Shown: piece after piece, positions 8,456 to 37,869 of the stretch
How positions within the stretch are numbered: the stretch's first letter is position 1
How the letters are laid out: each line of letters opens with the position of its first letter
DNA from: an uncultured Flavobacteriales bacterium
GTDB taxonomy: Bacteria > Bacteroidota > Bacteroidia > Flavobacteriales > Crocinitomicaceae
Length of the DNA stretch: 64,000 bases
Direction: 5' to 3'
Assembly: GCA_946482515.1 (NCBI GenBank)
Contig: CAMLRS010000003.1
Coordinates: 301,906 to 365,905 of the forward strand
Notes under the pieces: model-generated
Seen by the model: only the letters and a program-made list of their open reading frames with translations
Databases searched by the model: none
What the model was told of the DNA's origin: nothing
Translations under genes and position numbers: made by a program

Positions 8456-8980
8456 TTATAAAACTTCAGTCTTGCGGGGAAGCAATCCGACAATTCCAAA
8501 GCCATAGAAAAAAATCCAGTGGCCGGAGATCAGGCGTATGTGCTGCGAACGAAGGTCATGGTATTCCCATTCGGTGATAGATGAGATCGAGCCATGATCA
8601 TTTAGCACAAACATGCCGTTCTGGATTTCAGGCGTACCGGACTGGGAAAAGTCGTTGACGAAGAAGAAATTAAGAGCTGTATAGACCATGCAAAGGGCTA
8701 AAAGTACGATCGCGATCACAGGAAGTCCTTTAAAAACGGCTTTGTAGAATTCAAATCCGCTCAACCGGTCCTTCCTCAAAGGTGATTGAAAGCCTTGTTG
8801 CTTGTAGTGAAAAATTACAGGGATGAGCACGGCGAACATGCCAAGTTGTAAGATCATCTTTGCAGCCATACTGAAACCGGGGTCTATGTGAAACCAGCAG
8901 ATCACATGAACGATGATGGAAACCGTGAAGCCGGTAATGGCTAAAATAAAGGCGAACAGACGAAGGGATGGATTCATCAT
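8456..8980 (-). CDS. Hypothetical membrane protein at the end of the secretion operon
   Basis: This 174-aa protein has three or four predicted membrane segments: LFAFILAITGFTVSIIVHVI near residues 8-27, AAKMILQLGMFAVLIPVIF near 40-58, and GLPVIAIVLLALCMVYTAL near 86-104. A possible fourth lies at WIFFYGFGIVGLL. I do not recognise a family. It starts 3 bases after the stop of the C-like gene, so it is the last gene of the T2SS-like operon by position. The link to secretion is inference only. Confidence 0.75.
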   Translation of the reverse strand: MMNPSLRLFAFILAITGFTVSIIVHVICWFHIDPGFSMAAKMILQLGMFAVLIPVIFHYKQQGFQSPLRKDRLSGFEFYKAVFKGLPVIAIVLLALCMVYTALNFFFVNDFSQSGTPEIQNGMFVLNDHGSISSITEWEYHDLRSQHIRLISGHWIFFYGFGIVGLLPRKTEVL

Positions 8981-8983
8981 AGA

Positions 8984-9484
8984 CTATCGATCAATTTTAT
9001 AAAACGTACGGTTCTGCTTTTTGTAATTGATGACAACTGAATCGCGGTAGGTTTTCTTGATGAGCACATTGTCGAGCGCGGCATCGCCTTGCTTGAGCTG
9101 GTAGAAAACGCCGTCGATGGTGAGCAGCGTACGCGGCGTTGAGGATGATGTTTTGCGCACCAGCCCATAATAGCGGATTGCAGGCCATTGTGGTGGCTCC
9201 GGCTTTGGTTTAGGCATAGGCGGCTCAACCGGGATAAGTGGCATTTGAGCTACCGGCTCCGGCTCATTGCTCATGCCCGCCAAACTTCCGGTGAACGGAT
9301 CGCGATAATTCACACGCAGCGGAAACGTTTCACGCTTGCTCAGCCATTTCTTGCCATCCAGTTGTTGTGCAGCTACTGGTAATCCGTCTTCAGCGGTGAT
9401 GTTTGACTTCACGCGGATAAAGACCTGGTACCAGATCACACCAACCACAATCACCAAACCATATGTCAGGCCTTTGTTTTTCAC
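8984..9484 (-). CDS. GspC/PilP-like inner-membrane secretion protein
   Basis: This 166-aa protein has an N-terminal membrane anchor (GLTYGLVIVVGVIWYQVFI), a Pro-rich linker (PPMPKPKPEPPQWP) and a small C-terminal beta domain (IRYYGLVRKTSSSTPRTLL, DGVFYQLKQGDAAL). The architecture of anchor, linker and periplasmic homology-region-like domain is that of GspC or PilP, which connect the inner-membrane platform to the secretin. The assignment rests on architecture and position. Its start overlaps the previous gene's stop by 4 bases (ATGA). Confidence 0.7.
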   Translation of the reverse strand: MKNKGLTYGLVIVVGVIWYQVFIRVKSNITAEDGLPVAAQQLDGKKWLSKRETFPLRVNYRDPFTGSLAGMSNEPEPVAQMPLIPVEPPMPKPKPEPPQWPAIRYYGLVRKTSSSTPRTLLTIDGVFYQLKQGDAALDNVLIKKTYRDSVVINYKKQNRTFYKIDR

Positions 9485-10458
9485 GGAAAGAGCGTAAAGG
9501 TGTAAACAGGCGACGTTGGCCCGGCATTGCCTGCTGCGTCAACGGTTTTGATGCGCCAGAAATACACGTCGTCTGTAAGCGCAACGGAAACGGAAGTACC
9601 GGTTACGGTTTGCGTGTGGGCCATATCCGTAAACTGGTTGTCGCGCGCGACCTCAATGGTCGAGCTGACGGTCGATTGTACAACGCCCGGATTCGTATAA
9701 TTCCACGAGAACGAAACGGTGGTGTTGGGCACGATGGCGTTATTCGTAGGCGAAGTAAGCGTTACAGGTCCTGGATTGGTGGTGTCGATGTAGAATACGC
9801 GTTTGGTAAAGGCTGTTTCGCTGCCGTCGGTCAGGAACGCTTTCACGCCCCAGCTGTATGTTCCTTCAGCCAGATCGGTGAGTCCCAGCTGCACGGAAGC
9901 CAGCTGATCTTCCGAGTAAACGGTCGGCGAGGCGAAGGTTGGGCCGCTGTGCAGCTCGAACGTGTAGCTTTGCAGGTTCGGAACGGAATTCCAGCTGAAG
10001 GTCACATTTTCTGAATTCACATAGGCATTGGAAGCCGGTGCGGTGAGCACAACGCTGGTACTGCCACCTCCCGAATTCGTTCCTACGGTAAACGGAATGA
10101 TCGCCGAAGGCTTCGATGTGTAGCCGGCGTTCAGGGCGGTGATTTTCAGCTCGTAATCATTGGAGTCGAGGCTCACGAAGAAGTTCGTTCCGGTAACGAT
10201 GGAATCGACGCTGTATTCGGAAATACTGGCGAATGACGGACTTACGATTTCGATGTGGTAACGCGTGGCGCCTTTCAGCTCGTTCCATTTGATGTGAACG
10301 GGATTGACGTTAACGGTTGCGCCCGAAACCGGCAGTACCACAACCGGCGTTTCGTCGGAGATGTCTTTGGCGATGACGTCGTCACAGGCCGTGGTTGTTC
10401 CCAACACGAGCAGGCCGAGCAGGAATGCTACGAAGATGCTATTTTTCACTGCGTACAT
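9481..10458 (-). CDS. Lipoprotein with fibronectin-III-like repeats in the secretion operon
   Basis: This 325-aa lipoprotein has a signal peptide ending LGTTTAC with the lipidated Cys at residue 25. Three repeated beta domains of about 95 residues follow: VVVLPVSGATVNVNPVHIKW, VVLTAPASNAYVNSENVTFSW and VTLTSPTNNAIVPNTTVSFSW open each unit, and FYIDTTNPGPV links the last two. The units resemble Fn3/Ig-like surface modules. It overlaps the M-like gene by 20 bases and the C-like gene by 4, so it is built into the operon. It could be an outer-membrane partner of the secretin or a substrate, and nothing in the sequence decides. Confidence 0.8.
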   Translation of the reverse strand: MYAVKNSIFVAFLLGLLVLGTTTACDDVIAKDISDETPVVVLPVSGATVNVNPVHIKWNELKGATRYHIEIVSPSFASISEYSVDSIVTGTNFFVSLDSNDYELKITALNAGYTSKPSAIIPFTVGTNSGGGSTSVVLTAPASNAYVNSENVTFSWNSVPNLQSYTFELHSGPTFASPTVYSEDQLASVQLGLTDLAEGTYSWGVKAFLTDGSETAFTKRVFYIDTTNPGPVTLTSPTNNAIVPNTTVSFSWNYTNPGVVQSTVSSTIEVARDNQFTDMAHTQTVTGTSVSVALTDDVYFWRIKTVDAAGNAGPTSPVYTFTLFP

Positions 10459-10975
10459 AGTTTTGCAATAATAACGTGGATATTAAGTCGGTCTTGCCAC
10501 TGACAAGATCTTTTTTCAATTCGAATCGCGTGTGGATCAGGCGCGCCTCGTCGAAGTGCATTTCCAGCTTGTTGAGGAAACGGACCTGCGCCAGGTAATC
10601 GCCTTTCAGATCGATGCGGAAGGTGTTGATGCTGAAATCGGGGTGATCGAAGGTGTAGACTTCTTCGATCTGCTGCACGGAAAGTCCGGAGCTGTGCTGT
10701 GCGAAGAAGTTCAGGAATCCCTGCTGTACGCGCTCGATGGACACGTTTTCCTTGCCCAGTAATTTATTGACGTTCGCAATTTCCAGCTGCAAACGGCGAA
10801 TGGTCTCGCGGGAAGAAACGGCCGTTGCTTTTTTCTGTTCCAGCTCAACGATGTAATCCTGTGTTTCGAAGGTGGTTTTGAACGAACGCTTGTAAGCCAC
10901 CGCACACAGCAACACGCCGAGCACCAAAAGCGCCAGGTTTTTCTGTTTGTAGCTGTATTTGTCGAAAAACGTCAT
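10439..10975 (-). CDS. GspM/PilO-like secretion protein
   Basis: This 178-aa protein has one N-terminal membrane segment (NLALLVLGVLLCAVAY), a coiled-coil (VELEQKKATAVSSRETIRRL, LEIANVNKLL) and a C-terminal alpha/beta domain (FRIDLKGDYLAQVRFLNKLE). This is the layout of PilO/GspM, which dimerise with PilN/GspL in the periplasm. It lies directly after the L-like gene with a 4-base overlap. Identification is by architecture and gene order. Confidence 0.72.
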   Translation of the reverse strand: MTFFDKYSYKQKNLALLVLGVLLCAVAYKRSFKTTFETQDYIVELEQKKATAVSSRETIRRLQLEIANVNKLLGKENVSIERVQQGFLNFFAQHSSGLSVQQIEEVYTFDHPDFSINTFRIDLKGDYLAQVRFLNKLEMHFDEARLIHTRFELKKDLVSGKTDLISTLLLQNYVRSEK

Positions 10976-12147
10976 GAGCGGATTTTTACAAGCAGGTTAA
11001 ACGTCGCTTTTTTGTCGTTGATGCGCACGTAGTTCATCAGCTCAACGCCGGCCACCCATTTTTTCTGTTCCAGCTGCTCCATCCAGTCATCGAGGACTTT
11101 GCTGTTGCTGCTGTAGCCGATAATGGAAATCTGCTGACGGTTCAGCTCGACTTTTCGTTTCGGCTTGAGCGCTTCGGTGAGCGGGAACGCTTCGAGCATT
11201 TCGAGCTGTATGCTGGCTGGTACGGAAGCGCCGAGCTCGTCGAGGTAGAACGTGAGATAGCGCGAGGATTGAATACCGGAGTTGTCGACCAGCACGACCT
11301 TGCGCGATTTCTCCTGTTCAAGACGGTCGATGAGCGCCAGGTCTTCACCGAATCCGGCGATATCGCTTTCGAGCTGCGCGGCTTTGTTGTTGAGGTGATT
11401 GACGTAAAAATAGTTACCGAGCAGGGCGAAGAAGAAAATGGAAAGCATGCCCACACCCAGTTTGACGAAGCGCATGAATTCCTTGTAATTGCCGCGCGTT
11501 TCGGTGCGGAAACTTTCGGGAAGCCCGTCTTCGTAACCTTCCGTTTCATAAGCCATCAGCTCGCGGAAAGCGTTCACATAGGCTTCGTCGGTTGAAAGGA
11601 AACCAGCAGGAACGGCCAGGCGTTTTTCGTCGCCGGTGTTGCGTTCCAGCTTGCGGATATCGCTGTTGGCGATCTCGATCGTAAAATCGAGCTGCGCGGT
11701 CGTGTCCTGGCGATCGAGGAGGGCCAGCAGCGGAATCGGTCCGGCGTGTAAGCCCCAGATAAACGCTTTTGCAGCGGTGAGCTCATCCATGAAAGCTTGC
11801 ACGAGCGAAACGCGCAGGAAGGAAACGGCGATCGTGCCGCGGAAGGCCATGGAGTTGAAGTAGAAGTCTTCTTCGTGACCATTCACCAGCAGCGTTTCCT
11901 TGAAATTCGGAACGTTTTCCACGATGCGCGTCAGTACCCCGAATCCGCGGAAATGCAACACATATGGCAGATTCTTGCCGGCTTTTTTGAGCAATTCGAC
12001 AGCGCTGTCAACGGTTGTCCATTCCACCTTGTCCGGAAGGTTTTTTGTTGCCACCACGACATAACGGATCTGCCATTCCTGCTGCTCCAATTGCAGCTGA
12101 ACGTAGACAAATTTCCGCGGGGAAGGATATGTGGATTTGAACAGCAT
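10972..12147 (-). CDS. GspL / PilM-PilN-like secretion protein
   Basis: This protein is 391 aa from the ATG at 12147. Residues 1-220 form a cytoplasmic region of the actin-like GspL/PilM type. A single membrane segment follows (KLGVGMLSIFFFALLGNYFY, about residues 230-250), then a coiled-coil (LNNKAAQLESDIAGFGEDLA) and a periplasmic ferredoxin-like domain. The start is fixed by a TAATG junction in which its ATG shares one base with the secretin stop. A longer frame to 12225 would overlap the secretin by 78 bases and is rejected. It should link the GspE ATPase to the membrane platform. Confidence 0.78.
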   Translation of the reverse strand: MLFKSTYPSPRKFVYVQLQLEQQEWQIRYVVVATKNLPDKVEWTTVDSAVELLKKAGKNLPYVLHFRGFGVLTRIVENVPNFKETLLVNGHEEDFYFNSMAFRGTIAVSFLRVSLVQAFMDELTAAKAFIWGLHAGPIPLLALLDRQDTTAQLDFTIEIANSDIRKLERNTGDEKRLAVPAGFLSTDEAYVNAFRELMAYETEGYEDGLPESFRTETRGNYKEFMRFVKLGVGMLSIFFFALLGNYFYVNHLNNKAAQLESDIAGFGEDLALIDRLEQEKSRKVVLVDNSGIQSSRYLTFYLDELGASVPASIQLEMLEAFPLTEALKPKRKVELNRQQISIIGYSSNSKVLDDWMEQLEQKKWVAGVELMNYVRINDKKATFNLLVKIRS

Positions 12148-14042
12148 TAATACGTTACGGTCGGACGGATGAGAATGTGCAGTTTGGATTTTTCGCGCTC
12201 TTTCTGACGGCTGCTGAAGAACCACTTCAATACCGGAATGCGGGAAATGAGCGGAACACCGGAACCGGAGTCGTTGTTTTTCTTTTTGTCGAGGCCACCG
12301 AGCAACACCACTTCGCCGTTTTTCACACGCACCATCGATTCGAAGGTTTGCTTGGAAATGTTTGGCGGAGCGGTAGGATCGATCTTGCCACCGAAGTCGT
12401 CCTGCGTTACCGTAATGGAGAGCGTGACGTTTTCATCGGCGGAAACAAACGGTTTGATTTTCACCGTCAGGTTGGCGTCGACGGATTTCCATGTTTTGGA
12501 CGACAACACACCCTGGTTCACCACCGAGTTCTGCACATCGACCTGCGTTTCCTGGTAATAGGTCGTTTCACCGATGGAAATATTGGCGTTGTGACCATTG
12601 AGCGTCGTGATCTTCGGTGTGCTTTCGATAGCGACCACGTTGTTGCTTTCGAGCAATTGCAGGGAAACGTAGAAGTTTTCGGTGACGTTTCCGAGGTTCA
12701 CGATACCGAAGCCGTTGATGGCATCGAGGATGTTGTTGATCGTTTGCGCGCCGGCCTGTACGTCCATGTCAGGGAAAATGGTTCCGCTGGTGGTGGTCGG
12801 TTTTTCTTTCAGTCCGGCTTTGATCCCGGTTTTCACCTGGCTGCCTTTTTTCGATAAGATGATCATCACGTCGATCTGGATCATGGGCACCACGATATCG
12901 ATGCTCGATAAGAACGCTTTCAGCTCTTCGATCTTGCGTCCCGAACCGGAAACGATCAGGCCGTTCAGCTCGAGGAATTCGCTCACTTCGAGATCCGTCA
13001 GCAGGTCGCGCGGAATGGCCGCTTTCACGTTTTCGATCGTGCGGTTTTCCATGCGAATGAGCTCCGTAGCGCGGATGCCTTCGGTTTTCACTTCACCGAC
13101 CAGGAACACGCGGTTGTCTTCCTTGTAGGAATACTTCGAACCGTTGAACAGCAGGGAAAGCAGATCGGGGAAAGTCGCGTTCTTGATCTCGAAGCTGGCT
13201 TTGCCTTCCGGACGGTTGTAAAAGAAATAGTACGCATCGAGCTGCTTGGCGGCCAAACGAATGATGTCTTCCATTTCGGCGTTGTTGGCAATGATGTCGA
13301 GTGTTCCGAAGGCATTTTTGGTGATTTGAACGCCAGTTTGTTCGAATGGCGATGAGCTCGGCTTGAAAACGTTCGTGTTGCCACTGCCTTTTTCAGAATT
13401 CGGTGTGACAAACAGGTAATAAACGCCGCTTTCGTCTTTGTTCGATTCCAGTCCGTTGGCTTTGGCGATCATTTCGAAAACCTGGTCAAACGGACGGTTC
13501 AGGAAGTAAGCGCTCACTTGCTTGTTGCGCACTTCCGGAGCGAGCACGATGTTCTTTCCGCTCATCTTCGTCATGATTTCCACCACGCGCGAAAGCGTAT
13601 CGTTTTTCAGGTCAACGGAAAGAAATTCGTTTGATGGATTGTAATTCACATCGATCTTGCGTGCCGGCGGAACAAACACGACTTCTTTTACCGGCGCGCG
13701 TTTGCGTACGGCGAGGATGCTGCCGATGAACTGATATTCGATCTCGAAGTTATCGTAAAGGAATACCAGCACGTCTTTCACCTGTGCGTCGAAGAAGTTG
13801 TAGGAAATAGCCTGGTTGAACGATGGATCGATGCTGATGTTGAGGTTGTTTTCCAGCGCGATGGAATTCAGCAGCTCGGCCAGTGGTAATCCCGCCACAT
13901 TGAGCTGAACGGCGTTGTTGTAGCCCGGGTATTTCAGGCTCACGCTGTCGAGCTTGGTGCGCAGGGTTTCCTCCGTGTATTGCTGCGAATACGCGGTTAC
14001 CGAGGCGGTCATGGTCATTAAGATGATCAGGAACTTTTTCAT
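12147..14042 (-). CDS. gspD: Secretin (GspD/PilQ-like)
   Basis: This 631-aa outer-membrane secretin forms the exit channel of the T2SS-like machine. It has a signal peptide (LIILMTMTASVTAYSQ) and an N-terminal STN/N0-like domain (NVAGLPLAELLNSIALENNL). N1-N3-like modules (LSRVVEIMTKMSGKNIVL) and the C-terminal secretin domain follow (VVAIESTPKITTLNGHNANI, GETTYYQETQVDV, VRVKNGEVVLLGGL). It ends with HILIRPTVTY. The gene abuts gspE upstream and shares a TAATG with the L-like gene. No pilotin is evident unless the operon's lipoprotein serves. Confidence 0.93.
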   Translation of the reverse strand: MKKFLIILMTMTASVTAYSQQYTEETLRTKLDSVSLKYPGYNNAVQLNVAGLPLAELLNSIALENNLNISIDPSFNQAISYNFFDAQVKDVLVFLYDNFEIEYQFIGSILAVRKRAPVKEVVFVPPARKIDVNYNPSNEFLSVDLKNDTLSRVVEIMTKMSGKNIVLAPEVRNKQVSAYFLNRPFDQVFEMIAKANGLESNKDESGVYYLFVTPNSEKGSGNTNVFKPSSSPFEQTGVQITKNAFGTLDIIANNAEMEDIIRLAAKQLDAYYFFYNRPEGKASFEIKNATFPDLLSLLFNGSKYSYKEDNRVFLVGEVKTEGIRATELIRMENRTIENVKAAIPRDLLTDLEVSEFLELNGLIVSGSGRKIEELKAFLSSIDIVVPMIQIDVMIILSKKGSQVKTGIKAGLKEKPTTTSGTIFPDMDVQAGAQTINNILDAINGFGIVNLGNVTENFYVSLQLLESNNVVAIESTPKITTLNGHNANISIGETTYYQETQVDVQNSVVNQGVLSSKTWKSVDANLTVKIKPFVSADENVTLSITVTQDDFGGKIDPTAPPNISKQTFESMVRVKNGEVVLLGGLDKKKNNDSGSGVPLISRIPVLKWFFSSRQKEREKSKLHILIRPTVTY

Positions 14043-15455
14043 TCAGAGTTCGGTTAATAAAGGATAGGCTTCTTCGAGAGAAGTTACGCCTTCGTGAATT
14101 AATTGCAGGGCCTGTTGCGCCAGGCTGACGATTCCGCGCTGCTGAAGCAGTTCTTCTACGCGCAGTTCGCCTTTTTTAATGGATTCGGCCAGCTCGAAAT
14201 CGATCGGAATGACTTCGTAAACCGCTGTTCGTCCTTTGTAGCCGGTGTAATGACAGGCATCGCAGCCTACGGCAACGTATTGGGTAGCCGACGCGTGTGA
14301 CGTGTCGATGGTACGCGGCCAGTCTTTCAGATCGGTTGGTTGTTCCGCTTTGCAGGACGTACAGAGCTTGCGCACGAGTCGCTGCGCCACGGAGGTATTC
14401 ATGGTTCCGGCCAATAGGAATGGTGGAACGCCCATATCGATGAGTCGGGAAATGGTTCCCCATGCCGAGTTGGTATGGATGGTCGACAACACAAGGTGGC
14501 CCGTCAGTGCCGCACGAATGGCCATTTGCGCCGTTTCGCCGTCGCGGATCTCACCGAGCATGATCACATCCGGATCCTGGCGCAGGAACGAACGCAAGGC
14601 GCTGGCAAATGTCAAACCGATGGCTTCTTTCAGCTGAACCTGGTTGATGCCTTCGAGCGTGTATTCAATAGGATCTTCGACCGTCAGAATGTTGCGTTTC
14701 TCGTCGTTGAGCAGCTTCAGTGTGGCGTACAGCGTGGTCGTTTTTCCGGAACCTGTCGGACCGCTGATGAGCACAATCCCGTTCGGACGCTTGATCCCTT
14801 CCATGTAGCTTTCGATGTCGCGCTCGGTCAGTCCGAGCTGGTCCATACGAATGAACGAAGCGTCTTTCCCGAGGATACGCAACACGATCTTTTCACCGTG
14901 AAGCGTTGGCAGAATCGAGACGCGGATATCGAAATCCTCGTACTGGATACGGCCGTCCTGCGGCAGGCGTTTCTCCGAAATATCGAGGTTAGAGCGAATT
15001 TTGATCTTGTTCACCAGCTCCGCATAATCGGCTTTGTCGATGGCAAAACGCTCGATGAGGTGACCGTCGATGCGGATGCGCACGCGCGCACGCTCTTCAT
15101 ACGTTTCGATATGAATATCACTGCTTCCCAAATGGTTCGCGTCGCGGATAATGCGGTCCACGAAATCGGTTTTGGCATCGAATACGAGCTGCTGCTGTTC
15201 GTGTCCGGCCTTGCGGAAGTGTTTTCCAAGGTTGCGTTGAATGGCAATGCTGTCGATGGCCTCCAATTCAACGTTACAGCCAAACAAGGCCGACAGCTCT
15301 TCTTTGACCAATTGCAGGTTCTGCGTTTCGTCGATGTAGAACTGCGCTTCCGTGTCGGAGATCGCTTTCGGGATCACGCGGTAGTGCCACGCGAGATCGG
15401 ATCGCACGGCCTGCTGCAATTCGGCGGTTACCGGTATGTTATCCCACTTGCTCAT
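14043..15455 (-). CDS. gspE: Type II secretion / pilus assembly ATPase (GspE/PilB-like)
   Basis: This 470-aa cytoplasmic hexameric ATPase drives pseudopilus assembly. A short N-terminal GspE-N-like domain precedes the core. The Walker A motif GPTGSGKTTT is at residues 232-241, the Asp box is DPVEY-like (TVEDPIEYTLEGINQVQ), and the Walker B region is DPDVIMLGEIRDGETAQMAI, with the His box following (TGHLVLSTIHTNSA). The C-terminal tetracysteine zinc motif is present (CTSCKAE ... CDACHYTGYKGR), typical of GspE/PilB and absent from PilT retraction ATPases. It overlaps the peptidase gene by 4 bases. Confidence 0.95.
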   Translation of the reverse strand: MSKWDNIPVTAELQQAVRSDLAWHYRVIPKAISDTEAQFYIDETQNLQLVKEELSALFGCNVELEAIDSIAIQRNLGKHFRKAGHEQQQLVFDAKTDFVDRIIRDANHLGSSDIHIETYEERARVRIRIDGHLIERFAIDKADYAELVNKIKIRSNLDISEKRLPQDGRIQYEDFDIRVSILPTLHGEKIVLRILGKDASFIRMDQLGLTERDIESYMEGIKRPNGIVLISGPTGSGKTTTLYATLKLLNDEKRNILTVEDPIEYTLEGINQVQLKEAIGLTFASALRSFLRQDPDVIMLGEIRDGETAQMAIRAALTGHLVLSTIHTNSAWGTISRLIDMGVPPFLLAGTMNTSVAQRLVRKLCTSCKAEQPTDLKDWPRTIDTSHASATQYVAVGCDACHYTGYKGRTAVYEVIPIDFELAESIKKGELRVEELLQQRGIVSLAQQALQLIHEGVTSLEEAYPLLTEL

Positions 15456-15937
15456 GACGGATGGTTAAAAGAGTAAAACAAGAGGGGACAGGCCGCATTG
15501 ATCATAAGGTATGAAGCCGTGAAGAGCGAAAAATAGCCCGCATAAGGAATGGTTGAGCTGCGACGAAACAGCATCACTACGAGGTGAACGATCAGTACGC
15601 AGATCGTTCCGGCGGTAAAGAACCACACAAATTCCGGAAGTTGAAACAGTGGTGTCAACGCCAGCAGGAACAGGAAATCGCCCAACCCGAAGTAATTCTT
15701 GAACGGATTTTCCAGCTTCCCGAAACGCAGGCGGATGTAAAGTGTCAGCAAGCCGATCAATACAATCACAAAAGCGGCGTTGATTACAATGTTCAAAAAC
15801 GCCATGGCTTCCCAGCGGAACAGGAGCAATACGACGAACAGCACCGGCGGTAAAAACCACCAGATGGCGCGCGTACGGATGTCCTGCCAGAAAATGACAG
15901 CCAGTACCGGCAATGCTATGTAGGCAAACACAGGCAT
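15452..15937 (-). CDS. Minimal prepilin peptidase-like aspartic protease (A24-type)
   Basis: This is a 161-aa polytopic membrane protein. It keeps the two aspartates of type IV prepilin peptidases: FWQDIRTRAIWW near residue 20 and FGLGDFLFLLAL (GxGD motif) near residue 87. It has about five or six membrane segments but lacks the N-terminal cytoplasmic methyltransferase/zinc part of full-length PilD/GspO. It should cleave the three pseudopilin-like proteins encoded in the same operon. It abuts the major pseudopilin gene (1 bp apart) and overlaps gspE by 4 bases. Confidence 0.8.
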   Translation of the reverse strand: MPVFAYIALPVLAVIFWQDIRTRAIWWFLPPVLFVVLLLFRWEAMAFLNIVINAAFVIVLIGLLTLYIRLRFGKLENPFKNYFGLGDFLFLLALTPLFQLPEFVWFFTAGTICVLIVHLVVMLFRRSSTIPYAGYFSLFTASYLMINAACPLLFYSFNHPS

Positions 15938-16408
15938 TTAGTCGGGCTGTACTTCTTTTGGTTGTCCTTCCTGGTCGATTTCCCAGACATTCATTTTGCC
16001 ATCGCCGTTGAAATCCACGACAGCTTCAGCGCGACCTTTGAAAGACGTCGGGCTGGCTTCGGTAATGGAAATGCGGTAATTGGCTGTTCCGCCTTCTGTC
16101 GTAAGCTTGTGCGGCAGGTAATTGATCTCGCGCAAATCCATGGAATACTTGGAAAACTGCAAAAAGTAAGCGTATTCCAGGTTGTGGATCATGCGCAATT
16201 CCTGCTGGGCTTCCATGCTTTTGGTGCGCGTAGCAATTCCCGTCTGGTTGGGCACCACGAGCATGATCAGGATTCCCATAATCGCCAGTACGATCAGAAT
16301 TTCCGCCAGGGAGAAGGCTTTGAGACGTCGGATTTGCTCCCCCTTCGGAGGGGGATTGAGGGGGAGGATTTGATTGATCCGGTTCATATATTCTCTATAG
16401 TTTTTCAT
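15938..16408 (-). CDS. gspG: Major pseudopilin (GspG-like)
   Basis: This 156-aa prepilin-like protein carries the type IV pilin motif KAFSLAEILIVLAIMGILIM: cleavage after Ala, Phe+1 and Glu+5, then the hydrophobic helix. The C-terminal domain contains FNGDGKMNVWEIDQEG, a calcium-loop-like DxDGDG pattern common in GspG. The leader is unusually long (about 31 residues from the ATG at 16408, or 24 from 16387) because residues NPPPKGEQ are encoded by a repeat inserted in frame. A second, inverted copy lies in the 93-bp gap to gspF, which is by far the widest gap in this otherwise overlapping operon. Confidence 0.9.
   Translation of the reverse strand: MKNYREYMNRINQILPLNPPPKGEQIRRLKAFSLAEILIVLAIMGILIMLVVPNQTGIATRTKSMEAQQELRMIHNLEYAYFLQFSKYSMDLREINYLPHKLTTEGGTANYRISITEASPTSFKGRAEAVVDFNGDGKMNVWEIDQEGQPKEVQPD
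16335..16370. repeat. CTCCCCCTTCGG-type repeat inside the pseudopilin gene
   Basis: On the plus strand CTCCCCCTTCGGAGGGGG (16337-16354) runs into ATTGAGGGGGAGGATT. On the minus strand it is read in frame as ILPLNPPPKGE within the prepilin leader. It is inverted relative to the copy at 16456-16490. The core itself is a hairpin (CCCCCTTCGGAGGGGG). Confidence 0.8.
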
Positions 16409-16501
16409 AACTACGCATTATCATTCATTCGTCAAATCAGAAACTTTTTACGGGGATTTCCTCCCCCTTAGTCCCCCTCCGAAGGGGGAAACAGGTTTTC
16501 A
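16409..16501 (-). promoter_or_regulatory. gspF-gspG intercistronic region with an inverted repeat copy (possible mRNA hairpin)
   Basis: CCTCCCCCTTAGTCCCCCTC and CGAAGGGGGAAA (16460-16490) are inverted relative to the copy at 16335-16370. In the operon mRNA the two could pair over about 35 nt, with a loop of about 85 nt holding both candidate gspG start codons (16408 and 16387). This is a predicted structure only. Confidence 0.5.
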
Positions 16502-17596
16502 TCATTTGATCACATTACTCAAATTAAACATCGGCAGGTACATCGCTACCATGATGAGTCCAACCACAAGCCCGATGATCACAATGATCGCCGGTTCGAT
16601 GATGGTTCCCATCAGTTTGGTTCTGTACTCGATTTCGTCGTTGTATTGCTTGGTCAGTCGCACAAATGTTTTGTCGAGCTGATTGATTTCTTCGGCGATG
16701 CGGATCAGCGAGATCAGGCGTTTGTCCATAATGGAAAAATGACTGAGCCCGGTATGCAGCTGATTTCCAGCCAGGATTTCTTTTTTGGCGCGTTGCAAAG
16801 CAACTTCCAGCGGATAGAAACGGATCATTTCTTCCACCAGGTCGAGCGCTTTGATGAGCGGCGTGCGCGATTCCATCAACAGGCCCATGCTCTGGCAGAA
16901 ACGGGCGAGGTAGATCTTGCGGATAAGTGGCCCGAATACCGGTAAGCGCAAAACGATGGCGCTGCTGCGCTGACGAAACCAGGCTTCTTTGCGCTGTGTA
17001 TAAAAATAAACGGTGAGGCCGATGGTAATGATCAGGAACCACATCATGAACGAACCGAAGTGCTCGGAAAGCCAGACAATGCGCTGCGTAAGCCACGGCA
17101 ATTCCTGGTTGAACTGCTTGAACACGTCTTCGAACATCGGCACCACGGAATTGAGCATGAAGTACAACACGCCGATGGTGATCAGCAAAACGAAAACAGG
17201 ATAGGTGAATACGCTCACGAGCTGACGTTTCAAACGCACTTTGTCGCCGAAATAAACGGCCATGGAAAGCAACACGCTGCGCAGTCGGCCGGTTTCTTCA
17301 CCGATGCGGATGCTCTGGAATTCGTAAGGGGAGAAGTGCCCCGAAATTTCCATGGCTTCGGAAAGCGATGCCCCGGCAACGATGCGTTCCTGCAGCTGTT
17401 CGAGAATAGCCCGAACGCGTTTCTTTTCCTGTTCGTCGATGATCAGCTGGATGGCACGGCGCATATCGATCCCGCTTTCGATCAGCGAAGCGAATTCATT
17501 GTAGAATTGCTCCTTGATCTTGTCGCCAAAAGGATTCCCCAGCTCAATCTCCCGTTGAAAGAAGGCCTTTTTTTCCACCTGCTGTGTTACTGCCAT
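16502..17596 (-). CDS. gspF: Inner-membrane platform protein (GspF/PilC-like)
   Basis: This 364-aa polytopic protein is built of two T2SSF domains. The first spans about residues 30-155 (FYNEFASLIESGIDMRRAIQ, RIGEETGRLRSVLLSMAVYF). The second spans about residues 230-355 (LARFCQSMGLLMESRTPLIK, LIRIAEEINQLDKTFVRLTK). Membrane segments lie near 130-155, 180-205 and at the C-terminus (IIEPAIIVIIGLVVGLIMVA). GspF converts ATPase motion into pseudopilus extension. It overlaps the preceding pseudopilin gene by 10 bases. Confidence 0.94.
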   Translation of the reverse strand: MAVTQQVEKKAFFQREIELGNPFGDKIKEQFYNEFASLIESGIDMRRAIQLIIDEQEKKRVRAILEQLQERIVAGASLSEAMEISGHFSPYEFQSIRIGEETGRLRSVLLSMAVYFGDKVRLKRQLVSVFTYPVFVLLITIGVLYFMLNSVVPMFEDVFKQFNQELPWLTQRIVWLSEHFGSFMMWFLIITIGLTVYFYTQRKEAWFRQRSSAIVLRLPVFGPLIRKIYLARFCQSMGLLMESRTPLIKALDLVEEMIRFYPLEVALQRAKKEILAGNQLHTGLSHFSIMDKRLISLIRIAEEINQLDKTFVRLTKQYNDEIEYRTKLMGTIIEPAIIVIIGLVVGLIMVAMYLPMFNLSNVIK

Positions 17597-18075
17597 TGCT
17601 TTTCCAGGAAATAAGTGTTCATGCGGTCCGCGAGATCGGATTTCAGCGGATAGCTTAAAAGCATTTCTTCATTCTTCCACAGCACACGGAAATCGACACA
17701 TTCGCTTTTCCCATGTTTTTCCTGTCGGATGGCTGCCATTTCGATATCGAACGGCGTAACGGTTTCACCGACCGTTCGGACGAGCTTGTCGTTGCTGATG
17801 CTGTATTCGGTGGGCTTACCGGCAATGTAGATGAGCGCTTTGTCTTTTTCTACATGAATGGAATCGGATTCGTCGAGCTCGCGCCAGAGGTTCGACCGAA
17901 CGGCAAACCAGTTGTTGAGCTCATTTTTAATCGTCGTTTCATTGCGGACCTGCTCGTTGAAGCGGTTCAATGCGGCAAAAAACAGCCCTGACAACAATGC
18001 CATGAGTGCAATTACGACCGTTACTTCCAGAATGGAAAACGCAGCTAAACGATATGTGGATAGCTTATTTTTCAT
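17587..18075 (-). CDS. Minor pseudopilin (GspJ/H-like)
   Basis: This 162-aa protein has a prepilin leader MKNKLSTYRLAA, then FSILEVTVVIALMALLSGLF: Ala at -1, Phe+1 and Glu+5. A soluble domain without clear family identity follows (NWFAVRSNLWREL, VDFRVLWKNEEMLLSYPL). Position in the operon and pilin-type N-terminus support a minor pseudopilin; whether it is the J or H equivalent is unclear. It overlaps the neighbours on both sides by 10-11 bases. Confidence 0.8.
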   Translation of the reverse strand: MKNKLSTYRLAAFSILEVTVVIALMALLSGLFFAALNRFNEQVRNETTIKNELNNWFAVRSNLWRELDESDSIHVEKDKALIYIAGKPTEYSISNDKLVRTVGETVTPFDIEMAAIRQEKHGKSECVDFRVLWKNEEMLLSYPLKSDLADRMNTYFLEKQWQ

Positions 18076-18397
18076 AGAAGAAATCCTGTTCCCAAATCAT
18101 TTTTTCGTTGTCGGAAAGCACCAGGCGATGATGAACGGAAGAATCCAGCAGAGTGGTTTCGTCTTCGATTGTGCTGAGCTCGCCTTTCCAGTCGCGGACA
18201 GACGGCATGGTGTCGTTCACAAACGCGTTCAGCATGTAGGACTGGAATTCGGTTTGTTCCTTCACTTCCTTGAACTGAACGGTGGAGCGGTTGGACTGCA
18301 AAAAGACCTGAGAGGCCACAGCAAAGCACACAGCAATGATCGTGAGCGCGATCACCACTTCTGCGATAGTCGATGCCGGGATCCGTTTTACAGCCAT
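18065..18397 (-). CDS. Minor pseudopilin (GspI-like)
   Basis: This 110-aa protein has a short leader MAVKRIPA followed by STIAEVVIALTIIAVCFAVA. The Glu+5 is kept, with Ala at -1 and Ser instead of Phe at +1. The size and early position in the operon suit GspI, the smallest minor pseudopilin. The C-terminal domain is short and acidic. It overlaps the following gene by 11 bases. Confidence 0.75.
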   Translation of the reverse strand: MAVKRIPASTIAEVVIALTIIAVCFAVASQVFLQSNRSTVQFKEVKEQTEFQSYMLNAFVNDTMPSVRDWKGELSTIEDETTLLDSSVHHRLVLSDNEKMIWEQDFFYEK

Positions 18398-19614
18398 GCG
18401 AGTACTTTTGATTGCACTTTGCTTTGTTCTTCGAGCCAGAGCGGCATAAGAAAATCTGCCGGCAGATCATTCTGCGAGATCAGCGCATCTACGAGGTGAT
18501 TGCCATAGCTGCCACCGCCTACGCGAGCGATCAGCTGATTCGTATACAAGCTTCCGACTATGCTACCGAACAATTCTGTTTCGCCGCCATTGTAGACCAG
18601 CCCGGCAATGAGCGCATCTTTCCGGACTTCCAGGAACGGTGGTTTGCGGTAATCGTATTGTTGTGTCGTCAGGAGCACACCGCCGAGCACCATTGCGCCT
18701 TCTTCGAGCAGAATGTGGCGTTTGGAAAGCGGGTGTTTCAGCAATAATTCGTTCAACAGCAACACGCTCGGATAGCATAGCTGTACGTTTTTTTCGCAGT
18801 GAATGCGTTCGTGTGCAATGGCCTGAACCGATCCGGTAAATCCTTCCCGGAATTGAATAACCGGCGCGATGAGGATCACGTTTTCAAGCCTCGCTTCGGG
18901 CATCACGACAATGGAATCGAAGGAATGAATGATCACATTGCCGGAAATATGCTGGGCAATCGCCAGCGGCTCCATCGTTTCGTAGCAAGTCGTTGGCTGG
19001 TGAAAGGAATACGCGCTGTCTTTCGCCAGGTAGGGCAGACGCTGTAGGTTCTTTGTAAAGTCCTGGGCATCGATGTCGAGCCATTCTTCGCGCAAAGCCG
19101 GAAGCGAGGTTTCAGCCGTTTTGATCTCACCGAAAACCAGCTCGTCGTAGGCGTAATTTTTTCCGGCGATGTACGCACGTTCAACTCGTGAGTTGGGAAT
19201 GAAAGCGACACCTTCAACGCGTGTTTCACCGGTAATTTTCAAACCCGAAGCGTTGCCCGGAAGGTACAGCGCGGCCAGTTGCGGCACTTGTTTCGCTCCG
19301 ATGAGCGCCGAGCGCTTTTTATGCTGATTGCCTTTGAATGTTTGGGTGGCGATGAGATCGAAAGCGCCCCAACGAATCCGGCGGATCTTGCTGGTATCGC
19401 CATTGGCGTGAATGAACTGCGCCGAATCGTCGACCGAAAGGTGTTGCATGCCGTATTGAACAGCGGCATAACTGTCGAACAAAACGCGTTCCTTGTTGTT
19501 GTGCAGCACTTCGATGCGTTTTTGCGTAGAGGCAATAAACAGCACGCCCGAGCAGATCAGACCGACCAGCAGGGAAAACACGATGGCATAGGAAAGTGCT
19601 GCAGCGCGGATCAT
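18388..19614 (-). CDS. Large PilX/GspK-position protein with beta-helix-like body
   Basis: This 408-aa protein has an N-terminal hydrophobic helix (AALSYAIVFSLLVGLICSGV) like that of PilX/GspK proteins but without a recognisable prepilin cleavage site. The remainder contains parallel-beta-like repeats (LKITGETRVEGVAFIPNSRV, ISGNVIIHSFDSIVVMPEAR, LENVILIAPVIQFREGFTG). It occupies the GspK place, next to the minor pseudopilins, and may cap the pseudopilus. It overlaps the first operon gene by 4 bases and the I-like gene by 10. A homology search would be needed to confirm the K role. Confidence 0.65.
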   Translation of the reverse strand: MIRAAALSYAIVFSLLVGLICSGVLFIASTQKRIEVLHNNKERVLFDSYAAVQYGMQHLSVDDSAQFIHANGDTSKIRRIRWGAFDLIATQTFKGNQHKKRSALIGAKQVPQLAALYLPGNASGLKITGETRVEGVAFIPNSRVERAYIAGKNYAYDELVFGEIKTAETSLPALREEWLDIDAQDFTKNLQRLPYLAKDSAYSFHQPTTCYETMEPLAIAQHISGNVIIHSFDSIVVMPEARLENVILIAPVIQFREGFTGSVQAIAHERIHCEKNVQLCYPSVLLLNELLLKHPLSKRHILLEEGAMVLGGVLLTTQQYDYRKPPFLEVRKDALIAGLVYNGGETELFGSIVGSLYTNQLIARVGGGSYGNHLVDALISQNDLPADFLMPLWLEEQSKVQSKVLAWL

Positions 19615-20540
19615 GTGGATTTGCGTTTGAACAACGGTTTTTTTCCTGCCTTGCCGGCAGGCAGGATCTTCTTCTCTGAAGAATTTTCAGGTTGATCCGT
19701 GGTTTCTTTTTTGCGTTTTTTTCCAGGCTTGTCGGTCGGCGGATCTTTCGATCCTGCCTGTCCGGCAGGCAGGTCGGATTCGGGTTGCCCGGCTTTGTCT
19801 TTTTTCGAAAAACGTTTTTTTAAGCGAGTGAAAAAGCCTTCTTTTTGACCCTCAGTTCCGCTCTCATTCACATTCTGCTCTTGTTTCTGTTTTTTCTCTT
19901 TAGCCGGAACGAGCTCGCCCTCTTTGTAAACCGTTACGGTTTTTTCGTCGCCGTTGAAGGTTTCCTGTTTGCCGTGCAGCAGCTCTTTTTTGTAGCGCGC
20001 CACCGACAGCTTTCTGCCCAATGAATCGAACACCGTTACCTGGTGGTTGTTGCCTGAAATTTCGATGAGGCTGTCACCGGAATTTGTAGTGGCTTTTTTA
20101 CCGCGGATGATAGTGGTTTTATAGATTTCGCCTTGTTCGTCGTAATAGAGCTGCGTGCCGTGCTGACGGCCGTTCGACCAGTGTTCTTTGGAGATCAATG
20201 TGCCGTCTGTGCGCCAGTGGTTCCATTCACCGTCTTTCAGTCCTTTGCAGTAAGTGCCTTTCTCGCACAACTGTTTGTTGCCGTAGAATGATTCGAACAA
20301 ACCGTGGAGCAGCTGTCCGGAGCTTCCGCCCTGTGTTCCGAGAACGCGTTGGGCTTTGTACCAGTAATAGATCTTATCGGGCTGGTGGTGCTTGATGCCT
20401 TTTTTGTCGGAATCGAGTACGGTAAACAGCATCGAAAGTCCGTCCTGTTTCATGCTATGGCGCAGCGACAGGTCGATCGGATCCTGGGCAATAGCAATAC
20501 ATGACAGGAAGAGAAAGCAAAAGATGGTGAGGCTTTTCAT
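19611..20540 (-). CDS. Secreted MORN/YwqK-like repeat protein, first gene of the secretion operon
   Basis: This 309-aa protein has a Sec signal peptide (SLTIFCFLFLSCIAIAQ). Residues 90-160 hold MORN-type/YwqK repeats (KGLKDGEWNHWRTDGTLISK, WSNGRQHGTQLYYDEQGEIY), and a further repeat lies at LLHGKQETFNGDEKTVTVY. The last ~100 residues are low-complexity, Lys/Pro-rich and carry two in-frame palindromic repeats read as LPAGQAG and LPAGKAG. It is co-transcribed with the T2SS-like genes (ATGA overlap). Whether it takes part in secretion is unknown. Confidence 0.8.
   Translation of the reverse strand: MKSLTIFCFLFLSCIAIAQDPIDLSLRHSMKQDGLSMLFTVLDSDKKGIKHHQPDKIYYWYKAQRVLGTQGGSSGQLLHGLFESFYGNKQLCEKGTYCKGLKDGEWNHWRTDGTLISKEHWSNGRQHGTQLYYDEQGEIYKTTIIRGKKATTNSGDSLIEISGNNHQVTVFDSLGRKLSVARYKKELLHGKQETFNGDEKTVTVYKEGELVPAKEKKQKQEQNVNESGTEGQKEGFFTRLKKRFSKKDKAGQPESDLPAGQAGSKDPPTDKPGKKRKKETTDQPENSSEKKILPAGKAGKKPLFKRKST
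19645..19665. repeat. Palindromic repeat copy 2, in frame in the MORN gene
   Basis: CCTGCC (19645-19650) and GGCAGGCAGG (19656-19665) are read on the minus strand as LPAGKAGK near the C-terminus of the MORN-like protein. Confidence 0.75.
19753..19773. repeat. Palindromic repeat copy 3, in frame in the MORN gene
   Basis: CCTGCCTG (19753-19760) and CAGGCAGG (19766-19773) form an 8-bp perfect stem, read on the minus strand as LPAGQAG. Confidence 0.8.
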
Positions 20541-21163: not shown

Positions 21164-22870
21164 ATGATACGAATCCTCGGTTTCAGCTTGCTATCATTTT
21201 TGCTTGTCAGCAAAACGTATGCACAGACCACCTCAACCATTCTGAATCCTTCGCAGGATTGTTCTGCGACTTATTCGGGCTCGAATGTAGCCGTGGTGAA
21301 CAATAATGACCTGGTCACTTCTTACGGTCTATTGAGTACACGAATCTTTATCCAGTTCGATCTCAGCAGTATCCCGGCAGACGCCATTATTACAGGTGCG
21401 ACGCTGAAGCTGCCCATCGTTTCTGAAGCTTTTAGCGATCTTACCGTACAACGGATTGTATCAGCCTGGTCGGAAACAGCGATGTCATCTTTTACCGCAC
21501 CAACTCTGACAACCACGAACCAACAGTCGACCAGCACTACGACCGGTGTTATTTACCGGAATTTCGATGTGCTCTTGATGGTCAAAGACATGCGCACGAC
21601 ATTGGTCAATCACGGGTTTGTGGTCAGAAAAACCACCGAAACGGGTACGATTACCAATCAATACAGCAGCAGTAACACAGCTACCAAACCGCGGTTGGAT
21701 ATTAGCTGGTATCAGCCCATCAAAATCACGGCTGCTGTCGTAACGGCTGCGAGCTCTACAACGGCAACTGACGGAGCCATTACACCGACTGTATCAGGTG
21801 GCCCGGGCGGTACTTATACTTATACCTGGTGGAAAGACAACACTGTCAGCAGCTTTTCCTCAACGCTGAATCAATCCAATCTGGGCTATGGCTGCTATTA
21901 TCTCAGAATTACGCCACCGAGCGGCGATCCTGGCTACATGGCATTCTTAGTTGGTGTAAAGTGTGAAGTCGTTACGATCCCTTTTTCAAGGACCAGCGAC
22001 ATGCATTTGTTCATAGATGATGCGCTCTATAAATCGAACGTTTTCCCCCAAACTGCGAACAGTGGAAATGCGGTTAATATCTTTTCGAAACGATCCAACG
22101 CGGGTAGTGAGTTCACCTGGATGCGTTTTCGATTGTGGATGGATAACAACATCGACCCTATCAATGCCAAGCTGTATATGTACAATGACGGCCACGGAAC
22201 GGCAATTGACAACAGTTCGAAGATCATTTCCATTACATCGGATTGGCAGGAAATGACCGTATCGCCTGCAACAGCTCCAACGACCTCTTCGGCAATTACC
22301 ATCAACGTTCCTGCAACATTGACCACAACCGAAGACAAAGAGATTGAGATCTCCGATTTCTGGAATCAGTGGAAGGCCAACAATGCTACTAATTACGGGA
22401 TGTATTTTCTGCTACAGAACGCCACCGGCACAACCTATCGCGGACAGGAATACCATTCATCCGATGCGACGGATGTTTCGAAACGACCAACGATCAGCTT
22501 CGTAGTGGACGACGCTACCTGCGACCGAACGAATTATACCTTGTTCAAACCGGAAACGGATGCCGGTTATGCGCCGACTTTCCAGGGCAAGTTGAAATTC
22601 TATTTCGTAGAAGAATACCAGATCGATCCGGGGAAAAAGATCCCGCTTTCGCTCTACGATGAAAACAACGTGCTCGTTGCTGCGATCGATGTCAATGGAG
22701 CAGCTATTTCAGGTAAACCATTGTTGCCTGCGTTCAATTACACCTTCGACGACAACCGCCAGGTACTGAACCTCACCAGCTATGGGCTTACAGCAGGTAA
22801 ATTCTACATCCTGCAGCTCACGCACGATAACGGAACCAAGGAATACATCAAATTTATCTATACCAACTAA
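21164..22870 (+). CDS. Secreted DNRLRE-domain protein of the RHS cassette
   Basis: This 568-aa protein is exported by a signal peptide (LGFSLLSFLLVSKTYAQ). Residues 25-185 resemble a DNRLRE domain (IFIQFDLSSIPADAIITGAT, LKLPIV, IVSAWSE). A second DNRLRE-like unit spans about 265-445 (DMHLFIDDALYKSN, WMRFRLWMDNNID, AKLYMYNDGHG). The C-terminal ~110 residues form a beta domain ending in THDNGTKEYIKFIYTN. DNRLRE modules are common on bacterial secreted proteins next to RHS genes, and their ligand is unclear. The next giant gene begins 11 bases downstream, so the three large genes form an operon. Confidence 0.8.
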   Translation: MIRILGFSLLSFLLVSKTYAQTTSTILNPSQDCSATYSGSNVAVVNNNDLVTSYGLLSTRIFIQFDLSSIPADAIITGATLKLPIVSEAFSDLTVQRIVSAWSETAMSSFTAPTLTTTNQQSTSTTTGVIYRNFDVLLMVKDMRTTLVNHGFVVRKTTETGTITNQYSSSNTATKPRLDISWYQPIKITAAVVTAASSTTATDGAITPTVSGGPGGTYTYTWWKDNTVSSFSSTLNQSNLGYGCYYLRITPPSGDPGYMAFLVGVKCEVVTIPFSRTSDMHLFIDDALYKSNVFPQTANSGNAVNIFSKRSNAGSEFTWMRFRLWMDNNIDPINAKLYMYNDGHGTAIDNSSKIISITSDWQEMTVSPATAPTTSSAITINVPATLTTTEDKEIEISDFWNQWKANNATNYGMYFLLQNATGTTYRGQEYHSSDATDVSKRPTISFVVDDATCDRTNYTLFKPETDAGYAPTFQGKLKFYFVEEYQIDPGKKIPLSLYDENNVLVAAIDVNGAAISGKPLLPAFNYTFDDNRQVLNLTSYGLTAGKFYILQLTHDNGTKEYIKFIYTN

Positions 22871-37824: not shown

Positions 37825-37854
37825 TTGATCAAAACCGACTTTCCCTTATTTTTG
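37825..37854 (+). promoter_or_regulatory. Promoter of the T9SS-sorted beta-propeller gene
   Basis: TTG (37825-37827), a 19-bp spacer and TATTTTTG (37847-37854) make an excellent match to the Bacteroidota promoter. It lies 15 bases ahead of the ATG at 37870 and rules out the longer frame starting at 37825. Confidence 0.75.
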
Positions 37855-37869
37855 CCCAAAACACATCCT

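Follow-up and report, generated by a model that had tools for sequence, protein, structure and literature searches.

This study concerns an operon in a 64,000-nt stretch of contig CAMLRS010000003.1, from an uncultured Crocinitomicaceae bacterium (Flavobacteriales); the whole stretch is called the window below. Fourteen minus-strand open reading frames (ORFs) run from 20540 to 8456, and neighbours abut or overlap except at two gaps, one of 93 nt between the F and G genes and one of 3 nt ahead of the last gene. Scans of the window ORFs with Pfam and NCBIfam, in which bit scores were compared with the library cut-offs, yielded the F platform, the E assembly ATPase, the D secretin, the O peptidase of the A24 family, the G major pilin and a PilN-like protein. 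The core set of a type II secretion system (T2SS) is present: a secretin, one assembly ATPase, a platform, pseudopilins, a prepilin peptidase and a weakly matching GspC-like HR domain (E 0.017). The genes are, in the order of transcription:

19611..20540, minus strand: MORN-repeat protein with an N-terminal signal sequence (by eye), operon head; MORN_2 24.9 bits, cut-off 29.6
18388..19614, minus strand: K408, fourth pilin-like protein, probable tip pseudopilin; AlphaFold2 model, Foldseek match to ComZ
18065..18397, minus strand: minor pseudopilin, 110 residues, PA/STIAE (A8); profile match to geopilin at the helix, E 0.003
17587..18075, minus strand: minor pseudopilin, 162 residues, AA/FSILE (A12); profile matches to type IV pilins, best E 7e-6
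16502..17596, minus strand: inner-membrane platform GspF/PilC; PF00482 151 bits, TIGR02120 233 bits (cut-off 424)
15938..16408, minus strand: major pseudopilin, GspG/PilA-like, KA/FSLAE (A31); TIGR01710 39.5 bits, cut-off 88.85
15452..15937, minus strand: single-domain A24 prepilin peptidase, 161 residues, GLGDFLF; Peptidase_A24 25.4 bits, Pfam cut-off 26.5
14043..15455, minus strand: assembly ATPase GspE/PilB; PF00437 420 bits, pilB 485 and gspE 479, both below cut-off
12147..14042, minus strand: secretin GspD/PilQ; PF00263 133 bits, PilQ 146 and GspD 123, both below cut-off
10972..12225, minus strand: GspL/PilM-PilN-like inner-membrane protein, 417-residue ORF; PF05137 PilN 27.7 bits, above the cut-off of 22.8, residues 328-413
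10439..10975, minus strand: PilO/GspM-like inner-membrane protein; profile match to PilO 3jc8, E 2.4e-5
9481..10458, minus strand: lipoprotein with three immunoglobulin (Ig)/fibronectin type III (Fn3)-like domains; AlphaFold2 predicted local distance difference test (pLDDT) 93.6, FnIII matches
8984..9484, minus strand: GspC/PilP-like protein; profile matches to GspC HR 2lnv (E 0.017) and PilP 4av2 (E 0.062)
8456..8980, minus strand: small membrane protein, 174 residues; weak HemJ match, 20.3 bits, cut-off 138

Relatives were found for 13 of these 14 genes. The last one (8456-8980) was found again in locus L001 only and is probably not part of the system. The features listed in the original prediction lie at the coordinates given there. 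The gene orders K408-p1-p2-F (p1 and p2 being the minor pilins) and G-O-E-D-L-M-FN3-C were seen again in the surveyed loci. Because both the gene order and the residue preceding the pilin cleavage site (position -1) recur in relatives, the operon is not a chance arrangement. The PilN-like ORF starts at a GTG within the secretin gene, with an overlap of 79 nt, but its real start is probably internal, since most homologues are shorter than 417 residues. Among the database matches listed, the relatives named by organism are Fluviicola and Crocinitomicaceae.

A genome scan with a secretin alignment kept 80 of 145 loci, mostly titled Flavobacteriales or families within that order. Searching a phylum set of 395 genomes with the ATPase gave 13 window-type matches (E <= 2e-158); at E 1e-40, 147 of the 395 match, most of them through other ATPases. 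In a class set, 62 of 395 genomes match at 1e-85 and are called system-bearing here, including one (G430) that holds a different ATPase of 617 residues; the class was sampled via genome G001, a Flavobacteriales metagenome-assembled genome (MAG), and we take it to be Bacteroidia. Sequence around the matches was fetched as 97 regions, none longer than 20 kb. Window-type loci are the window itself, L001-L080, L111-L122 and L131-L186. Distant loci (L123-L130 and L187-L207), whose ATPase matches that of the window at about E 1e-110 or weaker, form a set split off in this analysis; two of them, L195 and L196, come from one genome, and some hold no recognisable system. The short stretches L081-L110 were excluded from the pilin, synteny, peptidase and cargo counts. 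Two window-type pairs, L045/L118 and L034/L122, represent the same genomes with the same gene maps, and these duplicates are removed by thinning.

The secretins of loci titled Flavobacterium are 31-49% identical to that of the window in the best segments, and the neighbouring genes are shared. The complete genome CP034120.1 (locus L006) carries a Fluviicola-like operon with a 65% identical secretin; it bears the title Glaciecola amylolytica, by name a gammaproteobacterium, which may not suit the sequence. Two operon copies, on two contigs (L015 and L017), are found in a single MAG whose title, Chryseobacterium gleum, is perhaps wrong. A different PilB, about 590-600 residues long and at about 40% identity, is encoded in L129 and in many of the 147 genomes of the phylum set that match; in L129 it adjoins a PilC-like gene and a second ATPase.

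The residue at position -1 and the prepilin peptidase

The predicted -1 residue is Ala in all four pilins of the window. Three of these sites (KA/FSLAE, AA/FSILE and PA/STIAE) had been named in the original prediction and are confirmed here, while the fourth pilin, K408 (18388-19614), had been overlooked. In relatives, Gly at -1 is the exception. Among 139 window-type major pilins the predicted residue is Ala in 90, Ser in 38 and Gly in nine, with two unreadable, so that Ala or Ser is present in 128 of the 137 readable sequences. After thinning to <85% ATPase identity (n = 98) the numbers are 75 Ala, 15 Ser and 8 Gly; for the 120 major-pilin homologues among the matches listed, the pattern gives Ala in 117 and Ser in 2, one (TACSLAE) being unmatched. 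Ala(-1) is therefore a trait of the wider group and not a peculiarity of the window operon. Most Flavobacterium major pilins have Ser(-1), and those of Crocinitomicaceae have Ala(-1). The other pilins follow the same trend after thinning: 36 Ala, 8 Ser and 11 Gly in p1 (n = 55), 38 Ala, 9 Ser and 10 Gly in p2 (n = 57), and 26 Ala, 15 Ser and 9 Gly, plus two misread, in K408 (n = 52). All six distant loci in which the site could be read in a major pilin encoded beside O or E have Gly, and distant pilins away from these genes have Gly(-1) as well. The six are what remains of 15 Gly in 145 after subtraction of the nine window-type ones.

Pilins encoded in the same operon tend to agree. One and the same -1 residue is present across all pilins read in 53 of 77 operons (mean 12.9 and maximum 25 in 1000 shuffles), and thinning to <70% ATPase identity leaves 24 of 37 operons uniform, against a mean of 5.5 in shuffles. 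This agreement is partly explained by shared ancestry.

The GFxxxE prepilin model TIGR02532, with a cut-off of 16.3, scores the window minor pilins at 9.8 and 10.0 and the major pilin at 19.3; it overlooks part of such non-Gly pilins. The predicted leader of the window major pilin has 31 residues, against about 9-20 in many of the relatives listed, and an in-frame palindrome, CCCCCTCCGAAGGGGG (NPPPKGE), lies near window position 16354 on the minus strand. In some major or minor pilins of L138, L143, L146, L147, L148 and L161, residue 5 is Asp, Gln or Ser instead of Glu.

The peptidase was described in the original prediction as a 161-residue form reduced to its GxGD half. Its size and the presence of the A24 domain alone stand, but both catalytic aspartates, D19 and D87, are kept: Asp19 is aligned in 141 of 143 homologues, the two exceptions being gaps, and Asp87 in all 143. 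Pfam gives PF01478 alone, and no A24_N_bact domain (PF06750). At the second position after GxGD, each of the 143 aligned homologues has Cys or a hydrophobic residue, and none has Lys. PilD usually has Lys at this position, and that Lys is seen in the long peptidases of L123, L125, L126, L130 and L195. Scans of seven distant peptidases found PF06750 in four, those of L123, L125, L126 and L130; the others are a long one without a PF06750 match (L195) and two short ones (L200, and L128, which matches nothing). An A24 search of seven genomes gave a match in four, in each case one only, the operonic peptidase. Side by side with a PilB-like ATPase of about 395 residues, three loci of the phylum set (L128, L194 and L199) encode an A24-like protein of 145-153 residues with GSAD in place of GxGD; no pilins were recognised near this pair.

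Single-domain A24 peptidases without the N-terminal domain are known in TadV/CpaA and in archaeal PibD/FlaK, and PibD accepts non-Gly residues at -1. The window peptidase differs from these in its lineage and substrate set.

The absence of the N-terminal domain does not force Ala(-1), because short peptidases also accompany Gly(-1) pilins. Four of five short peptidases scanned (L200, L180, L136 and L181) match PF01478 alone, all of them with Gly pilins, and the peptidase of L185, short by length, likewise stands beside pilins with Gly(-1). The ATPase tree, rooted on L123, suggests that the A24_N domain was lost first and that the shift to Ala and Ser followed in most of the group. On this tree the state of the major pilin at -1 changes nine times, and supported branches offer two to three independent contrasts, too few for any significant test. 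The co-adapted processing enzyme of the original prediction is not established; co-adaptation of peptidase and -1 site is no more than suggestive.

The alternative is that Ala and Ser at -1 reflect relaxed selection among small residues, unrelated to the missing peptidase domain. The Gly(-1) pilins beside short peptidases in L136, L180, L181, L185 and L200, the small number of independent contrasts among the nine changes and the persistence of Gly in 17-20% of minor and tip pilins after thinning are consistent with it. The agreement within operons far beyond shuffles, which persists below 70% identity, speaks against it, as do the minority position of Gly in all four pilin families together and its presence in the distant loci, several of which encode a two-domain peptidase. 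We consider relaxed selection a serious contender, if not quite the explanation we would expect.

The probable tip pilin, the lipoprotein and the type of machine

K408, a protein of 408 residues, has a predicted cleavage site (MIRA/AALSYAIV) without Glu5; its homologues in distant loci start with DG/YALASMLL or SG/YALPYLLV, again a prepilin-like site without Glu5. The window protein alone gave no match in Pfam and NCBIfam scans, and a bactofilin Pfam match, which it lacks, is present in 26 of the 64 members of its alignment. The AlphaFold2 model built from these 64 sequences (pLDDT 94.9, predicted template modelling score 0.90) shows a single helix (4-58), strands forming an antiparallel sheet (64-109), a beta-solenoid head and a final strand (400-407). 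The best Foldseek match in the PDB is ComZ of Thermus thermophilus (6QVI; E 1.5e-4, probability 0.97, TM-score 0.26), which shares the pilin fold with a beta-solenoid domain, but K408 is shorter, is only about 10% identical over the Foldseek alignment, and DNA binding is known for ComZ only. ComZ is described as having a pilin domain that resembles GspK and whose sheet carries an inserted solenoid, and a position at the pilus tip is argued for it (PMC6561018, as excerpted). As the ComZ pilin domain was matched to GspK, K408 can be likened to a large tip pseudopilin of the GspK type without Glu5, although GspK itself is absent among the fold matches listed for K408. On the basis of the model, K408 is a probable tip pseudopilin.

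The Fn3-like lipoprotein (9481-10458) and the MORN protein (19611-20540) of the original prediction are both present, and both genes are kept in syntenic operons. The lipoprotein gene lies between M (PilO-like) and C (PilP-like) in 81 of 84 window-type pairs and in none of 10 distant pairs; it is a part specific to window-type loci. The AlphaFold2 model and FnIII fold matches give it three Ig/Fn3 domains. A conserved stretch, for example C-K-D-F-I-E-K-D-I, directly follows the lipoprotein Cys (94 sequences); a Cys is present in the searched range in 92 of the 94, not all of these being true lipoboxes. The MORN gene, with a single weak match to MORN_2 and a 4-nt overlap with the gene that follows, directly precedes the K408 gene in 57 of 77 window-type cases and in none of seven distant ones. 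Upstream in L015, neither a MORN nor a K408 gene was seen. The tail of the MORN protein contains two in-frame copies of a GC-rich repeat, CCTGCCGG...AGGCAGG, at window positions 19664 and 19772 on the minus strand, read as LPAGQAG and LPAGKAG. In the GspC/PilP-like protein, D-P-F is invariant in 30 sequences.

Six NCBIfam models stay below their cut-offs: GspD scores 123 of 351 bits, GspE 479 of 630, GspF 233 of 424, GspG 39.5 of 88.9, PilB 485 of 676 and PilQ 146 of 284. The system resembles the type IVa pilus (T4aP; PilMNOPQ-BCD) in that the PilB and PilQ models give the ATPase and secretin slightly better scores than those of GspE and GspD do, M resembles PilO, and C resembles both PilP and GspC. 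It departs from T4aP in its GspK/ComZ-like tip pilin, single-domain peptidase, non-Gly residues at -1 and lack of PilT: a search of seven related genomes with the PilT-family model TIGR01420 found the operonic ATPase as the sole match in all seven, always below cut-off. With the proteobacterial T2SS it shares a pseudopilus, a secretin, a single assembly ATPase and a GspC-like HR domain, but its GspD, GspE, GspF and GspG scores remain below cut-offs and its accessory parts are different.

The window operon belongs to the 'Bacteroidetes T2SS'. In the excerpted text of Denise 2019 (PMC6668835) this system groups with T4aP in every case and may have arisen from it independently as a secretion system. 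The type was described in Cytophaga hutchinsonii by Wang 2017, whose excerpted text calls the gene organisation distinct from T2SS (PMC5553014). The original prediction of a distinct Bacteroidota T2SS-like system with new parts is supported by the scores below cut-off, by Gly(-1) being the exception in relatives and by the synteny of the Fn3 and MORN genes, but the system itself and its distinctness had already been published. A comparison by published gene order alone places the minor pilins, F, G, O, E, D and L/M/C-like genes in the same order in C. hutchinsonii CHU_3191-3202 and Flavobacterium johnsoniae Fjoh_0611-0622 (PMC5553014, in part). CHU_3192 and Fjoh_0621, given no role in the excerpted text of Wang 2017 (PMC5553014), likely occupy the position of the Fn3 lipoprotein, judging from gene order; a search of open-access literature found no further mention of them. 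The abstract and sections 19 and 24 of Wang 2017 (PMC5553014) do not mention the solenoid pilin, the MORN gene or the -1 residue for these two species. New here are the predominance of Ala and Ser at -1, the single-domain A24 peptidase with both Asp residues, the fourth pilin, the synteny of the Fn3 lipoprotein, the absence of PilT in seven genomes and the linkage to RHS genes. The open-access literature search found no earlier report of the Ala/Ser processing code, of a solenoid tip or Fn3 lipoprotein in this system or, judging by titles and the openings of abstracts, of its link with RHS genes; prior reports elsewhere are possible.

Candidate cargo beside the operon

Three genes diverge from the operon, and all three products have signal sequences by eye:

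21164..22870, plus strand: DNRLRE/CBM96 protein; NF033679 86 bits
22882..29256, plus strand: 2124-residue protein without a Pfam or NCBIfam match
29277..37229, plus strand: 2650-residue RHS/DUF6443 protein with an RHS core; DUF6443 39.7 bits and Rhs_assc_core 44.4 bits, both above cut-off

The libraries scanned gave no match to a type IX secretion system sorting domain in these proteins; the next gene (37825-39345) has one, Por_Secre_tail PF18962, at 28.1 bits (cut-off 27). Beyond its core domain, the RHS protein ends in 257 residues (window 36456-37229) that contain THEMWHNLTHSH, which we take to be an HExxH-like zinc-protease motif; a Pfam scan of this part gave no match.

Relatives of the DNRLRE, 2124-residue and RHS proteins were found in 9, 24 and 20 of 129 window-type loci, respectively. 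At least one of the three lies within the fetched stretch in 47 of the 129, compared with 3 of 28 distant loci; this contrast is weak evidence, the distant set serving as control, and position provides the stronger test. DUF6443 is encoded in 46 of 62 system-bearing genomes but in only 50 of the 333 other genomes of the class set (Fisher p 4e-20, ignoring kinship and genome size). Among the 79 DUF6443 places listed in system-bearing genomes, 4 are at most 10 kb from the ATPase gene (0.36 expected), 16 at most 20 kb (0.72 expected) and 17 at most 30 kb (1.08 expected). The RHS-module genes near the system occur in varied arrangements, on either strand and upstream or downstream. The linked RHS/DUF6443 giants are the best cargo candidates.

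Possible function of the system

We are inclined to see the operon, with some reservation, as a Bacteroidota 'T2SS' pseudopilus machine derived from T4aP, lacking a retraction ATPase and most likely moving folded Sec-exported proteins across the outer membrane. The E ATPase and the F platform would push a pseudopilus of the major pilin through the secretin, and the solenoid pilin together with the two minor pilins would form a tip complex capping it. The PilMN-, PilO- and PilP/GspC-like proteins would couple the membranes. At the outer-membrane end, the group-specific Ig/Fn3 lipoprotein might be pilotin-like, stabilise the secretin or be exposed at the surface. The operonic single-domain A24 peptidase would accept any of the small residues Ala, Ser and Gly before the cut, not strictly Gly, and without the N-terminal domain it may not N-methylate. 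The neighbouring giant RHS-type proteins would be the cargo.

Several points weigh against such a secretion machine. The 17 DUF6443 places within 30 kb lie in 16 of the 46 system-bearing genomes that encode DUF6443 (among the places listed, many on short contigs), so that most of these genomes lack the linkage, and the co-occurrence is uncorrected for phylogeny, genome size and MAG completeness. The best match of the tip pilin is a DNA-uptake pilin. In C. hutchinsonii, mutants have cellulose, adhesion and outer-membrane protein phenotypes, and the excerpted text of Wang 2017 identifies no substrate, reports extracellular proteins as hardly changed and colony spreading of the D mutant as somewhat reduced, and calls the status as counterpart unproven (PMC5553014).

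A more specific proposal, which we put forward tentatively, is a Bacteroidia secretion system dedicated to giant RHS-type proteins that evolved from T4aP independently of T2SS. It would combine a solenoid-tipped pseudopilus with a lineage-specific Ig-domain outer-membrane lipoprotein and an Ala/Ser processing code read by a peptidase minus its methyltransferase half.

The C. hutchinsonii changes in outer-membrane proteins and cellulose adhesion, with extracellular proteins little altered (PMC5553014, in part), would also fit a short surface pilus or the presentation of outer-membrane adhesins without release of cargo, the RHS linkage then arising from a common surface-protein region; the modelled lipoprotein and solenoid tip may be said to resemble surface parts. 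Such a pilus seems unlikely in view of the absence of PilT in seven of seven genomes and of the varied arrangements of nearby RHS-module genes, which suggest a functional tie.

A competence pseudopilus feeding ComEC, with the solenoid pilin as a ComZ-like DNA receptor at its tip, is improbable. To our knowledge, Gram-positive Com pili lack PilT, which counts in its favour, as do the fold match of K408 to ComZ and the arrangement common to both, in which the solenoid is attached to a pilin sheet. ComEC is encoded in 375 of 395 class genomes, whether the system is present or not (58 of 62 system-bearing ones), and so lends no support to DNA uptake; Pfam and NCBIfam scans for competence genes in the operon gave weak ComG matches below cut-off only. 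ComZ binds DNA (PMC6561018, as excerpted), but the solenoid region of K408 has no net positive charge (-11 in the window protein, mean -0.5 over 64 sequences), although ComZ too is without positive patches according to the same excerpts (PMC6561018). The cell-surface and cellulose phenotypes of the C. hutchinsonii mutants point elsewhere (PMC5553014, in part), and the excerpted competence screen in Riemerella names other genes (PMC8459023), the presence of the system in that species being unchecked.

Denise 2019 considered a novel secretion system derived from T4aP but left its cargo, tip and extra parts open; with the conserved lipoprotein, the solenoid tip pilin and the RHS giants linked to it, the system can be tested by gene removal. 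The widespread natural departure from Gly(-1), beside a peptidase lacking a domain, offers a case for studying how prepilin peptidases choose their site.

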